A stretch of 6,961 nt of DNA, taken from an archaeon. GTDB lineage: Archaea > Aenigmatarchaeota > Aenigmatarchaeia > GW2011-AR5 > GCA-2688965. This document shows positions 2,689 to 6,961 of this stretch, piece after piece. The stretch is taken from positions 1-6,961 of the forward strand of contig NZEE01000088.1 of assembly GCA_002688965.1 (NCBI GenBank), read 5' to 3'. Made by a program: the position numbers and the translations under genes. The notes beneath the pieces are model-generated. The model was not told the origin of the DNA. It did no database searches and saw nothing but the letters and a program-made list of their open reading frames with translations. Position 1 is the first letter of the stretch. Each line of letters begins with the position of its first letter.

Positions 2689-3752
2689 TGAAAAAGTTAT
2701 TATTCGTCGTATCAGTTTATAGACAAGGCGAAAGGATTCATCCAATAATTCCATCTTTAAGTGAAAAATTCGACATCAGTTTATTGTCCGTCCACCAGAT
2801 GAATTTTAAACATCATTGGAACGGAGATATTGATTTAAGAAAAGAATTTCACAAAAAATATGATTCTTATTTTAGTAAAATTTATGATAATTGGCAATAT
2901 GTAGATTATTCTCAATTTGATATTATATTGTTTGATGATTCGAGAGATAAAGGCACGGAAATACCTACAAAAATAATATATCCTATTGCTAAGGATGCTG
3001 GCGCAGTGGTTTTTGGCAATCAACATGGAAATAATAAATTTACATCTAAAAGTTATGAAGTTGATCATTATAAACAAGTTTTTGATTATTGCTTTTTACT
3101 CGGTCGATATGAAAGAGATATATTTTCTAAATTTGTCGATAAGAATGCATATTTACTTGGTGGAATTCCATCTAATGATGTTTTAAAAAATTATAAAAGA
3201 ACTAATGAAAATATATTAGTGATAACAAATTTTTTAGAAAATGAAAGAAGGATGTTCCCGACCTTTTTTGGTGATGATTTCGTAAAAAAAATAAAACTGT
3301 ACGACCTGCAACAAAAATATGGTAAAAGGGTTATAGTTAAAATAAAGAGCAGAGACAGACATTTTGCATTAGGCAATCTCTATACTGAAGATATAAATTT
3401 TGTAAAATCTGTATTGAAAAATAATTCTATAGAGGGCGATGTATTGAGAGATGTAAAGGATGACAATTTAATGATTTCGAGCGCTTATTGTGTGGTTGGC
3501 GCTCCTTCTACTATGTGTTTTAAATCTATACAACTTGGAATACCGACTGTAATATTAGACGGAAGCGGTTATATCGGTGCTTATGAAAATTTTTATGGAT
3601 TTAAACCTTATGGTGAAATAGAAAATAATATAGATAATCAAGTAAAAAGAGGTAGAGATACAGAATATATTAATTATAACATTGAAGGTGGTGTTGATTA
3701 TAATTCAATTGATGTATATATAAACTCGTTAGTTAAAATACTGGAAAGATGA
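2688..3752 (+). CDS. GT-B-like glycosyl/glycerophosphate transferase
   Basis: A 354-residue protein without signal peptide or membrane segment. MKKLLFVVSVYRQGERIHPIIPSL is a Rossmann-type start. VVFGNQHGNN (107-116) resembles the 'Q.HG' acceptor-side motif of CDP-glycerol glycerophosphotransferase and capsule (KpsC/KpsS-like) enzymes. LLGGIPSNDVL (156-166) matches the 'GxPR.D.L' linker between the two Rossmann domains of that group. The C-terminal half shows a strand, RVIVKIKSRD (214-223), where relatives have a 'V.K.HP' loop; the His-Pro pair is absent here. It is followed by CVVGAPSTMCFKSIQLGIPTVI (268-289), the donor-binding 'S.S...E....G.PV' region of GT-B enzymes. The likely role is transfer of a nucleotide-activated unit to a growing glycan at the cytoplasmic face. 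It is coupled to the neighbours by overlaps of 1 and 4 bases. Alternatives are a UDP-GlcNAc 2-epimerase-like or plain GT-B glycosyltransferase. Fold confidence is good; reaction confidence is low. Confidence 0.68.
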   Translation: MKKLLFVVSVYRQGERIHPIIPSLSEKFDISLLSVHQMNFKHHWNGDIDLRKEFHKKYDSYFSKIYDNWQYVDYSQFDIILFDDSRDKGTEIPTKIIYPIAKDAGAVVFGNQHGNNKFTSKSYEVDHYKQVFDYCFLLGRYERDIFSKFVDKNAYLLGGIPSNDVLKNYKRTNENILVITNFLENERRMFPTFFGDDFVKKIKLYDLQQKYGKRVIVKIKSRDRHFALGNLYTEDINFVKSVLKNNSIEGDVLRDVKDDNLMISSAYCVVGAPSTMCFKSIQLGIPTVILDGSGYIGAYENFYGFKPYGEIENNIDNQVKRGRDTEYINYNIEGGVDYNSIDVYINSLVKILER

Positions 3753-4879
3753 AAATAAATAAAGTAATTGGTTATTGTTTATCTTCATCTTATGGCAATG
3801 GAAAAGTTTACGGGCAACCACTTAATGTCAAAAGTATAGGCCTTATAGAAATTCATACAGATAATGGTTTTGTGGGTATTGGCGAAACATATTCGGGTGT
3901 GTATGTACCCGAATTAATTGAACCTACTGTGAAATTTATAGAATCATTGATAATTGGTATGAATCCGATTGATATTCAAGGTGTATGCGATTCTATGAAT
4001 ATACCTTTTGTTGGAATGAACGGGTTTATTAGAAGCGTAGCTGGTGCAGTAGAAATTGCGTTGTGGGATTTAAAGGGACAGATTGAAGAAAAACCAATAT
4101 ATAAACTATTGAGTGATAATTATTCAACCGATTTTAATATTTACGCGAGCGGCGGTTCCGTTTCATTCAATAGTGACGATATTAAGAAGGATATAGAGAA
4201 AGTAACTTCAGAGGGATTTAGTTCTTATAAGATGAGAGTGGGCGTTCAAGATTGGAAACAAGATTTAATCAGAGTATCTACAGCAAGAAGTGAACTAGGT
4301 ACTAATAATTTAATGGTCGATGCAATAATGGGAACTTTAAATACTTGGAACCAGAATAATGTAGTCCATAATATAAAAGAATTAGAAAAGTATGATTTAA
4401 CTTGGATTGAAGAACCATTACATCCATCTAAATTAAAGGAATTAAAATCAATATATAAAATGATTAATATTCCGATAGCAACAGGTGAAGGTCTAAGCGG
4501 AAAATTTGATTTTGATTCATATTTAGATTCTAATTGTATAGATATTATTCAACCAGATGTAACTTATTGTGGCGGATTTATTCAGGCAATAAGAATAATA
4601 GAAAATGCAAAGAGAAGAGGTATAAAGGTTGCATTGCATGTGTGGGGTAGTAGTATTTCTTTAATTTCTAATTTACATTTAGCATTAGCTATGAAAGTCG
4701 ATTGGATAGAAATTCCAATGGTTAAATTAGATTTATTGTCAAGCGAATTTAATAATTTGAAAGAAATTATATTAAATAAGCATTTTTTACCCAATAACGG
4801 ATTGGGAATAAAAATTAGTGATGATATTAAAAATACTTACCAATTTATTAATAATAGTGGATATAAAATAAAAAAGTAA
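3749..4879 (+). CDS. Mandelate racemase/muconate lactonizing enzyme family protein (enolase superfamily)
   Basis: 376 residues, full length for the family. The N-terminal capping domain covers about residues 1-125 (GLIEIHTDNGFVGIGETYSG at 31-50 and the conserved AVEIALWDLKG at 100-110). The TIM-barrel domain follows. Metal ligands are visible at strand ends: D191 (MVDAIMG), E221 (WIEEPL) and E247 (ATGEGL). The His-Asp acid/base dyad of the mandelate racemase subgroup is D270 (IIQPDVTYCGG) with H297 (ALHVWGSS), and E321 (WIEIP) matches the further conserved Glu. The KxK motif reads YKMRVG (K161, R163), so Arg replaces the second Lys. Known relatives abstract the alpha-proton of a carboxylate, most often dehydrating or epimerising acid sugars with Mg2+. 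In this operon it may make or consume a sugar-acid precursor; that is inference. ATG overlaps the upstream TGA by 4 bases (ATGA), and the Shine-Dalgarno is weak and close, so translation probably depends on coupling. Confidence 0.88.
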   Translation: MKINKVIGYCLSSSYGNGKVYGQPLNVKSIGLIEIHTDNGFVGIGETYSGVYVPELIEPTVKFIESLIIGMNPIDIQGVCDSMNIPFVGMNGFIRSVAGAVEIALWDLKGQIEEKPIYKLLSDNYSTDFNIYASGGSVSFNSDDIKKDIEKVTSEGFSSYKMRVGVQDWKQDLIRVSTARSELGTNNLMVDAIMGTLNTWNQNNVVHNIKELEKYDLTWIEEPLHPSKLKELKSIYKMINIPIATGEGLSGKFDFDSYLDSNCIDIIQPDVTYCGGFIQAIRIIENAKRRGIKVALHVWGSSISLISNLHLALAMKVDWIEIPMVKLDLLSSEFNNLKEIILNKHFLPNNGLGIKISDDIKNTYQFINNSGYKIKK

Positions 4880-4882
4880 ATA

Positions 4883-5248
4883 ATGAAAAACAATAAACCA
4901 AAAACAATATTTTGCGATTTAGATGGTACGCTAGTTAAACATTCAAATCCTGTAGAAGTTCAAAATTTAGATTTAAAATTAGAAGTTTTACCTGGAGTTT
5001 ATAGTAAATTAAGAGAATGGGATAATAAAGGATATCATATAGTAATCACTACTGGCAGGAAAAAGAGCGCAAAAGAATCTACTATTAAACAACTACAGAG
5101 AGCGGGTATTTTATATGATCAATTAATAATGGGTTTTGGTGGCGGTGATAGAATTTTAATAAATGATAAAAAGGCCGATAGTACTAGAGACACTGCCTAT
5201 TCAATAAATGTAAAAAGAAATAGAGGAATTGTAGATGTCAAAATATAA
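4883..5248 (+). CDS. Small capless HAD-superfamily phosphatase
   Basis: A 121-residue HAD hydrolase. Motif I is IFCDLDGTLV, with nucleophile D12 and acid/base D14. Motif II is VITTGRKKS, with T56/T57 after a hydrophobic strand. The C-terminal GGGDRILINDKKAD (86-99) holds the acidic motif (D89 and/or D95) that completes the Mg2+ site. There is no cap insertion, placing it with short capless phosphatases, which act on large or exposed phosphoesters such as phosphosugars. It lies between an enolase-superfamily enzyme and a sugar-phosphate-type cupin, so it probably dephosphorylates a sugar or sugar-acid phosphate intermediate; this is inferred from context. It begins 3 bases after the preceding stop with no good Shine-Dalgarno, so ribosomes probably re-initiate there. 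It overlaps the next gene by 14 bases. The superfamily is clear; the substrate is not. Confidence 0.85.
   Translation: MKNNKPKTIFCDLDGTLVKHSNPVEVQNLDLKLEVLPGVYSKLREWDNKGYHIVITTGRKKSAKESTIKQLQRAGILYDQLIMGFGGGDRILINDKKADSTRDTAYSINVKRNRGIVDVKI
5223..5228 (+). promoter_or_regulatory. Ribosome binding site for cupin gene at 5235
   Basis: GAGGAA lies 6 bases before the ATG at 5235, within the last codons of the HAD gene. It supports this start despite the 14-base overlap. Confidence 0.55.
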
Positions 5249-5714
5249 ACATATAGAAGATGCTTGGGTACGGAAAGCATTGGAAGAATATAAAGATAAA
5301 ATAGATAAGAACAAATCTCACCGTTTAGATATTAGTTCATATAGGGTAGAAAAACCATGGGGGTATGAACTTTGGTTGGAGCTTAACGAACATTATGCTT
5401 ATAAATTAATTCATATGAATAAAGGATATCAAAGTAGTTTACAGTGGCATGAAAAGAAAGTAGAAACCAATTATGTTATTGAAGGTGAAGCAGAAGTATT
5501 ATTAGAAAAAGAAGACGGTACAATGGAATCAAGAAGTTATAAAGCTGGTGACGGTTGGTGTGTTCCATTGAAAACAAAACATAGGGTAATTGCTACAACA
5601 GATTATACAGCCCTTGAATGTTCAACTGCACATTTGAATGATTGTATAAGATTCGAAGATGATTCAGATAGAGGTAGCGGAAAAATAGAATCAGAGCATG
5701 GGGAAATTAAATGA
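5235..5714 (+). CDS. Cupin-domain protein resembling the type II mannose-6-phosphate isomerase domain
   Basis: 159 residues. After a charged N-terminal extension of about 35 residues (probably helical), the segment VEKPWGYELWLE (38-49) matches the 'RPWG.YE' opening of type II phosphomannose isomerase domains. Cupin motif 1 runs from G64 to G84: GYQSSLQWHEKKVETNYVIEG, with Q70, H72 and E77 as metal-site residues, the same 'LQ.H....E' arrangement as those isomerases. Motif 2 (GDGWCVPLKTKHRV, 105-118) gives H116. The family interconverts phosphosugars, or exists as the isomerase half of PMI/GMP enzymes that feed GDP-mannose. Here it stands alone beside a separate nucleotidyltransferase, so it could be a sugar-phosphate isomerase/epimerase or a binding protein for the activated sugar. 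The start at 5235 is supported by GAGGAA. The stop overlaps the next start as ATGA. The acidic tail after residue 140 (FEDDSDRGSG) is low-complexity. Confidence 0.78.
   Translation: MSKYKHIEDAWVRKALEEYKDKIDKNKSHRLDISSYRVEKPWGYELWLELNEHYAYKLIHMNKGYQSSLQWHEKKVETNYVIEGEAEVLLEKEDGTMESRSYKAGDGWCVPLKTKHRVIATTDYTALECSTAHLNDCIRFEDDSDRGSGKIESEHGEIK
5700..5705 (+). promoter_or_regulatory. Probable ribosome binding site for ATG at 5711
   Basis: GGGGAA lies 5 bases before the ATG at 5711. It is a moderate match, but it supports the start that includes the N-terminal cysteine pairs. Confidence 0.4.
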
Positions 5715-6961
5715 AAACAACATTTTGTGAAAATTGCCAGTCCACTGTAAAAGTGTATAGTGATTACGGTTATAATAAAAATCATTGGATATATTATTGT
5801 GTACAATGTGAAATTGAATTGAGTTATAATTTTAAGTTTTGTATATTAGCTGCAGGAAGGGGAACTAGAAATAATGATGTTGATGGATTACATAAAGCTT
5901 TACTTCCACTAGAAAATAAGCCCGTTATATCACATATCATTGATAAATTGGATAAAAAAGTTGAAGTTGTAATAGCAGTTGGTTATAGAGCAGAACAAAT
6001 AAAAACTTATTTAAATACTGTTTATGATGATAGAAAAATAACATATGTTGATATTGATAATTATGATGGGGAAGGTTCGGGTCCCGGTTATAGTTTATTG
6101 TGCTGTAAACGTGAATTACAATCACCTTTTATATTTACATCAGCAGATACTATAGTTGAGGAAGATATGGCATTTAATTATATTAGTGATAATTGGTTAG
6201 GAGTTTCTAAGGTAGAATTGGATGAATCGATGAATTATTGTTTGGTTCACGGCAGTAAATATTTAGAGGATTTGTATTATGGAACTGGCAATAGAGCTTA
6301 TGTTGGTATGGCAGGTATTCATGATTATAAAAATTATTGGAAAAGTTTGGAGAATCGAAAAATAGTAAATGATGAGTATCAAGTAATTCATGGATTTGAT
6401 GGACTTAAACATATAAGACTAATCGATTTTACTTGGTATGATACTGGAAATAATAAGTCCTACTATGAAACTAAAAAGATTTTTTGTAATGATGTGGTAG
6501 CAAATAAAAGCGATGAGGCTATTTTTATCGATAGGGGTAAGGTGATTAAATATTTTAATGATTCTGAAAAAACGAAATTAAGAGTAGAGAGAACCAAATA
6601 TTTAAATGATAGTTGCCCGCAAGTATCAGCTGTAAATGATAATATGTATACTTATGATTATGTTCAGGGAAAATTATTTTCAAACATTACTGATGAATTT
6701 TTGATGAGAAAGTTTTTAAATGAATGTAAAACAAATTTGTGGAAAGAATCTCATGTTACTGATTATTTTTTAGATGATTGTAAAGAAATGTATGAAATAA
6801 AAACGAAAGAAAGAGTAAAGTCATTAGTAGATTCAAAACTTGATAGAATATCTATTATTAATGGTGTAGAAGTAGAACCAGTTGAAATTATGTTAGATAA
6901 AATAAATTGGAAATCTTTTTATGATAAATCAATTCCATCAAACTTCCACGGTGATTTACAA
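5711..6961 (+). CDS. Zinc-ribbon / sugar nucleotidyltransferase / APH-choline-kinase-like fusion protein (3' end outside window)
   Basis: The frame stays open from ATG 5711 to the window edge, 417 codons without a stop, so the C-terminus is missing. Residues 1-37 carry two CxxC pairs (C6/C9 and C30/C33), a zinc-ribbon pattern. Residues 43-260 form a nucleotidyltransferase: ILAAGRGTR (45-53) is the nucleotide-binding loop, HKALLPLENKP (61-71) holds the conserved Lys, TSADT (143-147) the metal Asp D146, and WYDTGN (242-247) the second Asp. Such domains make NDP-sugars or CDP-choline-type products. From about residue 266 a kinase-like domain begins: IFIDRGKVIKYFND, with K280 as likely ATP Lys; YDYVQGKLF (315-323), a hinge-like strand; and NFHGDLQ (411-417), the HxD catalytic loop of the aminoglycoside phosphotransferase/choline kinase family, where the window stops. 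It would phosphorylate a small molecule and then activate it. The order is nucleotidyltransferase then kinase, as in LicC-LicA type pairs; the zinc ribbon is unusual. The small-molecule substrate is unknown. Confidence 0.83.
   Translation, partial: MKTTFCENCQSTVKVYSDYGYNKNHWIYYCVQCEIELSYNFKFCILAAGRGTRNNDVDGLHKALLPLENKPVISHIIDKLDKKVEVVIAVGYRAEQIKTYLNTVYDDRKITYVDIDNYDGEGSGPGYSLLCCKRELQSPFIFTSADTIVEEDMAFNYISDNWLGVSKVELDESMNYCLVHGSKYLEDLYYGTGNRAYVGMAGIHDYKNYWKSLENRKIVNDEYQVIHGFDGLKHIRLIDFTWYDTGNNKSYYETKKIFCNDVVANKSDEAIFIDRGKVIKYFNDSEKTKLRVERTKYLNDSCPQVSAVNDNMYTYDYVQGKLFSNITDEFLMRKFLNECKTNLWKESHVTDYFLDDCKEMYEIKTKERVKSLVDSKLDRISIINGVEVEPVEIMLDKINWKSFYDKSIPSNFHGDLQ

Follow-up and report, generated by a model that had tools for sequence, protein, structure and literature searches.

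What might a single protein that carries a zinc-ribbon-like segment, a nucleotidyltransferase (NTase) and a small-molecule kinase produce? The question is raised by the last gene in positions 1–6961 of contig NZEE01000088.1 (assembly GCA_002688965.1), the stretch analyzed here (the window). We consider it likely that the gene, which probably belongs to a marine tailed phage, encodes a bifunctional sugar kinase/nucleoside diphosphate (NDP)-sugar pyrophosphorylase that acts within a nucleotide-sugar assembly line. This reading was built on the computed domain order, the catalytic residues, the fold of the NTase half, the gene neighborhood of the relatives and the linkage of the ribbon to the NTase (Table 1). 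If true, it bears on which sugars phages place on their DNA or on surfaces.

Table 1. Features of the fusion gene and its neighbors (feature, position in the window, strand, supporting details)
Ribbon–nucleotidyltransferase–kinase fusion gene	5711..6961	+	417 codons; continues past the window at the 3' end
Zinc-ribbon-like segment, residues 1–41 (C6, C9, C30, C33)	5711..5833	+	Cys conservation, DZR 0.003, strands at the knuckles
Nucleotidyltransferase domain, residues 42–262	5834..6496	+	Invariant G49, G51, D146, D244, G246
APH-like kinase domain, N-terminal part, residues 263–417	6497..6961	+	K280, H413, G414, D415; HGD at nt 6947–6955
Cupin (type-II phosphomannose-isomerase-like by Pfam)	5235..5714	+	Cupin_2 and MannoseP_isomer above cut-off
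Small HAD phosphatase (capsule-phosphatase/PNKP-like)	4883..5248	+	phrog_415 6.7e-11; phrog_1238 1.1e-8

Domain Structure and Relatives of the Fusion Protein

The reading frame has no internal stops and runs open from an ATG to the window end; this start codon overlaps the stop codon of the upstream cupin gene. The nearest full-length relative (P0002, 557 aa, 97% identity) has the same chain: a CxxC...CxxC ribbon followed by the NTase (residues 42–262) and the kinase (residues 263–557). The three-domain fusion described in the earlier note from the sequence alone is thereby confirmed. A kinase encoded by a separate gene and a frameshift are both ruled out by the single frame and the full-length relatives. 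The details of that description were also recovered: CxxC pairs are located at C6/C9 and C30/C33, the GxGTR-type motif of the NTase reads GRGTR (residues 49–53), and the kinase part reaches the window end with HGDLQ (residues 413–417). As to the DxG motif expected further downstream, the kinase of P0002 carries HGDLQPEN and then LIDW; the expected Asp is present, but it is followed by W-R and does not form DxG.

A total of 603 homologous proteins were found at E ≤ 0.001, full-length relatives being mostly 551–571 aa long. The following counts refer to the 120 homologues listed among these matches. The motif H[GN]D[LF] occurred beyond residue 300 in 112 of them; the eight others comprise four short fragments, P0118 and P0119, which read HGDI, and P0079 and P0087, which also lack the motif. 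An N-terminal extension was present in 80 homologues, while the other 40 begin directly at the NTase. The full CxxC...CxxC pattern was found in 78 of the 80 extended proteins.

Both catalytic sites were shown by computation to be intact, with the catalytic residues of the NTase and of the kinase invariant across 134 sequences. Pfam assigned NTP_transf_3 to the window protein (9e-10). The APH profile scored P0002 below its cut-off (22.1 vs. 23.2 bits) and exceeded it on P0034, L005, and L015. A structure model of P0002 had a pLDDT of 93.8; it replaced an initial model from 17 close sequences, which was poor in the NTase half. In this model the NTase half matches the folds of UGPase, LicC, RmlA, and GlmU. 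The list of structure matches was filled by the NTase half and has no bearing on the kinase fold. Among solved structures, the best sequence match of the NTase profile was LicC (1jyk, 6e-13). The pairing of a kinase with an NTase, which should yield an NDP-activated molecule as the earlier note had suggested, is supported by these sequence data.

Gene Neighborhood

The neighborhood was surveyed in 147 loci with a full or nearly full protein, i.e., the best 80 of 214 viral contigs, 65 of 74 genome contigs, the window and locus L001. Six genes on either side were considered as predicted by a simple open reading frame (ORF) caller, and the names of neighbor clusters rest on one representative each. 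P0002 as the sole query retrieved no relatives from viral contigs; the 214 contigs came from a search with an alignment.

A cupin gene was found near the NTase-kinase in 112 loci (fused ones included), and a GatZ/KbaZ-like aldolase in 102 (e.g., L127, 7651–8829); the L001 copy of the aldolase had no Pfam match. HAD genes of the window type were present in 59 loci, KdsC-like HAD genes in 51, and a shikimate-dehydrogenase-like gene in 36. A split transketolase was encoded by separate genes (N-terminal part in 17 loci, C-terminal part in 16). GmhA-like SIS genes occurred in 15 loci and ribulose-phosphate 3-epimerase genes in 12; 11 loci had a second SIS gene, in each case along with the epimerase. 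Since the transketolase N part and the aldolase co-occur in two loci only, they look like alternatives.

In the 15 closest loci, including the window, HAD (15), cupin (14), transketolase N (14), shikimate-dehydrogenase-like (12), transketolase C (12), and SIS (11) genes were found. Their usual order is HAD, cupin, NTase-kinase with or without the ribbon, SIS, transketolase N, transketolase C, and shikimate-dehydrogenase-like. The clade has 13 virus loci (L004–L016), and a direct search of 12 virus records, all but that of L012, detected the SIS gene in every one; thus, the SIS misses in the survey are gaps left by the ORF caller.

Several gut-bacterial contigs (L103, L108, L110, L119, L146, and others) encode the KdsC-like HAD, the NTase-kinase, the ribulose-phosphate 3-epimerase and the SIS protein consecutively, a gene row suggesting an NDP-pentose. 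The gene context suggests that the clades differ in the sugar they supply to one activation enzyme, its source being a transketolase, an aldolase or a ribulose-phosphate epimerase. A cupin was fused in front of the NTase-kinase in 22 of the loci, 21 of them viral, giving proteins of 632–657 aa (the one in L034 is cut by the contig end). These loci include L024, L025, L026, L030, and L116, and their cupin is of the kind encoded separately in the window.

Substrate and Proposed Pathway

The earlier note had pointed to the phosphocholine systems of the LicC/LicA type. On such a reading, the substrate of the kinase would be choline, ethanolamine or a related amino alcohol, and the NTase would make the CDP derivative for a surface glycan. 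The NTase does resemble LicC in fold and sequence, and relatives are known to form fusions (PMC6697681). However, the fold matches to sugar nucleotidyltransferases (GlmU, UGPase, RmlA) are about as good, and no LicD match was found for the nine proteins of the window that were scanned, which cover only 5 kb upstream and three of which matched nothing at all. The neighborhood differs from that of the LicC and PntC fusions in belonging to sugar-phosphate metabolism. Choline was set aside as the first-choice substrate on these grounds, and we regard the amino-alcohol reading as improbable. A sugar is preferred because the conserved neighbors are sugar-phosphate enzymes: an isomerase, a transketolase or aldolase, phosphatases and a cupin.

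The gene context gives a concrete order of reactions for the sugar kinase/pyrophosphorylase. A transketolase, or an aldolase or epimerase in other clades, would provide a ketose phosphate, which the SIS isomerase, perhaps together with the cupin, would convert to an aldose phosphate. The HAD enzyme would then strip the distal phosphate, the APH-like domain would add a phosphate at the anomeric carbon, after which the NTase domain would couple the sugar phosphate to a nucleotide. The step order, the anomeric phosphorylation, the zinc and the sugar are the parts of this scheme that we infer.

The closest described logic is that of the NDP-heptose relay, in which an isomerase, a kinase, a phosphatase and a nucleotidyltransferase act in turn and the kinase and nucleotidyltransferase are fused (PMC11573728). 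All four activities have candidates in clade A, whose transketolase could supply the ketose; the HAD gene and the fusion are present in the window itself, and the adjoining SIS gene in relatives only. GmhA is the closest solved relative of the SIS protein. The module might therefore be a true NDP-heptose pathway from sedoheptulose 7-phosphate, with a GmhA-like isomerase and an HAD phosphatase and with replaced kinase and NTase folds. It differs from the HldE-type relay in that NTP_transf_3 and APH domains stand in place of the kinase and NTase families of HldE. That a transketolase could produce ketoses of more than one length also counts against heptose in particular. Moreover, N (or G) and D occupy the positions aligned with the active-site QH and E of GmhA, and the true substrate may therefore differ from plain sedoheptulose 7-phosphate. 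A true heptose pathway thus seems to us rather unlikely, though it is a narrower version of the sugar reading and compatible with it.

In the GmhA-like SIS subfamily (L084, 11662–12294, and 13 relatives), the motif HPFVS[ED]DK is kept in 13 of the 14 proteins, L014 having C for S.

Comparison with RB69 and Thanatos

The two-domain fusion is already in print, and the ribbon form and the cupin-fused sister form are variants of it. Thomas et al. 2018 (PMC6024577) reported arabinosyl-hydroxymethylcytosine in the DNA of phage RB69; they describe ORF053c and ORF052c as one protein of 561 residues (ORF53_52c) and speculate that it takes part in making UDP-arabinose alongside ORF055c, a protein with a SIS domain. 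In the common family treated here, the one phage member that we found tested is TH1_060 of the Shewanella phage Thanatos, which was needed for propagation (PMC12838424).

Both published proteins are, like P0002, single chains of about 560 aa with an N-terminal NTase-like and a C-terminal phosphotransferase-like part. In the annotated RB69 genome ORF051c, ORF052c, ORF053c, ORF054c, and ORF055c are consecutive; the SIS isomerase and a phrog_1238 HAD (ORF051c, 1.9e-42) are thus close to the NTase-kinase. The window HAD matches the same family, which is its third-best, with phrog_415 scoring better. The similarity of ORF53_52c to the window protein is only remote: hhalign with single sequences gave probabilities of 94.9 for the kinase half and 93.3 for the NTase half, and phrog_4098, the family of the RB69 halves, had no match to the 417-aa window protein up to E 0.1. 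Further differences are that the RB69 NTase part has no ribbon, its first residues being those of the catalytic motif, that its setting is DNA modification with the SIS protein annotated as arabinose 5-phosphate isomerase, and that no cupin or transketolase is annotated in the RB69 stretch examined.

This similarity raises the alternative that the NDP-sugar serves to glycosylate the DNA of the phage itself (as in RB69 and, perhaps, Enterococcus phages) and not a surface glycan. ORF53_52c and TH1_060 were linked by their authors to a pentose on phage DNA (PMC6024577, PMC12838424), and in Enterococcus phage 9183 the HAD and NTase-kinase genes come after a thymidylate-synthase-family gene and a dUTPase gene. 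Against this, PF00303 (thymidylate synthase/hydroxymethylase) was absent from 10 of 10 module-A records (seven viral, up to 166 kb), a weak argument as the records are possibly fragments. The window itself has glycan-type genes, encoding a Nucleotid_trans glycosyltransferase-like protein, a DUF2334 protein and a sugar-acid dehydratase-like protein, and many members of the family lie in contigs filed under bacteria or archaea, where binning can be wrong. DNA as the target is in our opinion unlikely; it too is a narrower version of the sugar reading and compatible with it.

In the Enterococcus phages Planchet and 9183 (L002, L003; approximately 6.4–13.3 kb), the HAD and NTase-kinase genes lie between the thymidylate-synthase-family and dUTPase genes on one side and the thymidine kinase and DNA polymerase genes on the other. 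Two genes of Planchet in this interval are called glycosyltransferases; Pfam support for their counterparts in 9183 is weak or missing. The interval is a candidate base-glycosylation cassette.

Several results weigh against a sugar kinase/pyrophosphorylase. The kinase profile had no useful solved relative in the PDB (best E 0.07), and we met no measured activity for any member of the family. Purified TH1_060 had no function detected in vitro, and UDP-xylose was made by a separate Thanatos protein, TH1_063 (PMC12838424). The SIS and transketolase genes, expected from the relatives, would lie beyond the end of the window, and the SIS proteins are GmhA-like only in view of the changed positions mentioned above. 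The cupin is unsure as an isomerase, because its nearest solved relatives by sequence are oxalate decarboxylases. Finally, BLASTP of the window HAD against RB69 ORF051c gave no match.

The N-Terminal Ribbon

The cysteines C6, C9, C30, and C33 were kept in 79, 79, 80, and 80 of the 80 extended homologues, while many columns between them vary; chance CxxC pairs are thus ruled out. The Pfam profile DZR (double zinc ribbon) matched the window protein at 0.003, below its cut-off. Two conserved CxxC knuckles are characteristic of a zinc ribbon, and the predicted strands (3–6, 11–18, and 27–30, with C6 and C30 at strand ends; pLDDT of the block 71–79) would fit one. A search with the ribbon segment, covering proteins of 0.55–1.75× length that share short exact words, returned 16 matches, all from the same fused family. 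The ribbon had been called unusual, and among the sequences compared it is indeed confined to one clade. No description of the ribbon-bearing form turned up in literature searches on related topics, none of which was aimed at the ribbon.

The distribution of the ribbon was traced on trees of 71 chosen sequences (55 listed proteins, 15 loci, and the window; 36 with and 35 without the ribbon); these trees were built quickly, and their outer rows have long branches. The ribbon requires two changes of state on the NTase tree and 13 on the kinase tree, at least six of the latter being forced by starred branches; none of 500 shuffles was as low as observed for either tree. Since the ribbon follows the NTase tree and not the kinase tree, it is a trait linked to the NTase, and the NTase and kinase halves are exchanged by recombination. 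Sliding-window identity was compared for 13 pairs. Among the clearest, P0106 and P0081 are 90–100% identical through the NTase and 52–85% in the kinase, and P0046 and P0086 are 37–87% identical in the NTase and 87–100% in the kinase; the contrast is less sharp for P0047–P0089 and P0051–P0106.

The ribbon pattern occurs in 5 of the 147 loci (L004, L008, L016, L084, and the window). L084, with the ribbon, and L005 and L006, without it, have like neighbors, and each of their cupins shares 94% identity with that of the window; therefore, the ribbon is not needed for the pathway. It is probably a small zinc-binding cap belonging to the NTase domain and may serve in stability, oligomer formation or partner contact, being presumably dispensable for the reaction. 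The analysis turned up nothing for or against the roles considered in the earlier note, i.e., recruiting RNA or a carrier, or sensing metal.

A broader possibility, which we put forward tentatively, is that the module is a self-contained marine-phage NDP-sugar factory drawing on central metabolism, with its own split transketolase, isomerase, cupin, phosphatase and fused kinase-pyrophosphorylase. Its relay would be parallel and non-homologous to that of NDP-heptose, and the ribbon-NTase cassette, which recombines against the kinase half, might retune the sugar or nucleotide used.

Probable Phage Origin and Other Genes of the Window

In L004, a relative with 73% identity, flanking genes match a clamp loader, a head-maturation protease and an exonuclease, and the contigs that hold the close virus loci are 29–166 kb long. 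The first, cut ORF of the window gave only a weak neck-protein match (0.03), and the window DNA had no match to annotated phages. As the window itself has no sure phage gene, its probable origin from a marine tailed phage is read from the relatives. The family as a whole was found in at least 214 viral-contig stretches, besides the contigs filed under bacteria and archaea.

The HAD gene overlaps the cupin gene. The two products resemble the capsule phosphatases EcbF/BcbF and type-II phosphomannose isomerase cupins, respectively, but remain below the NCBIfam cut-offs. Upstream, an enolase-superfamily gene of the sugar-acid dehydratase-like type (3749–4879; MR_MLE_C 1e-42) has no related ORF in the loci retrieved, and the DUF2334 gene (1202–1882) gave an NCBIfam deacetylase hint far below the cut-off. 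Together with the Nucleotid_trans gene, these two fit a glycan island.
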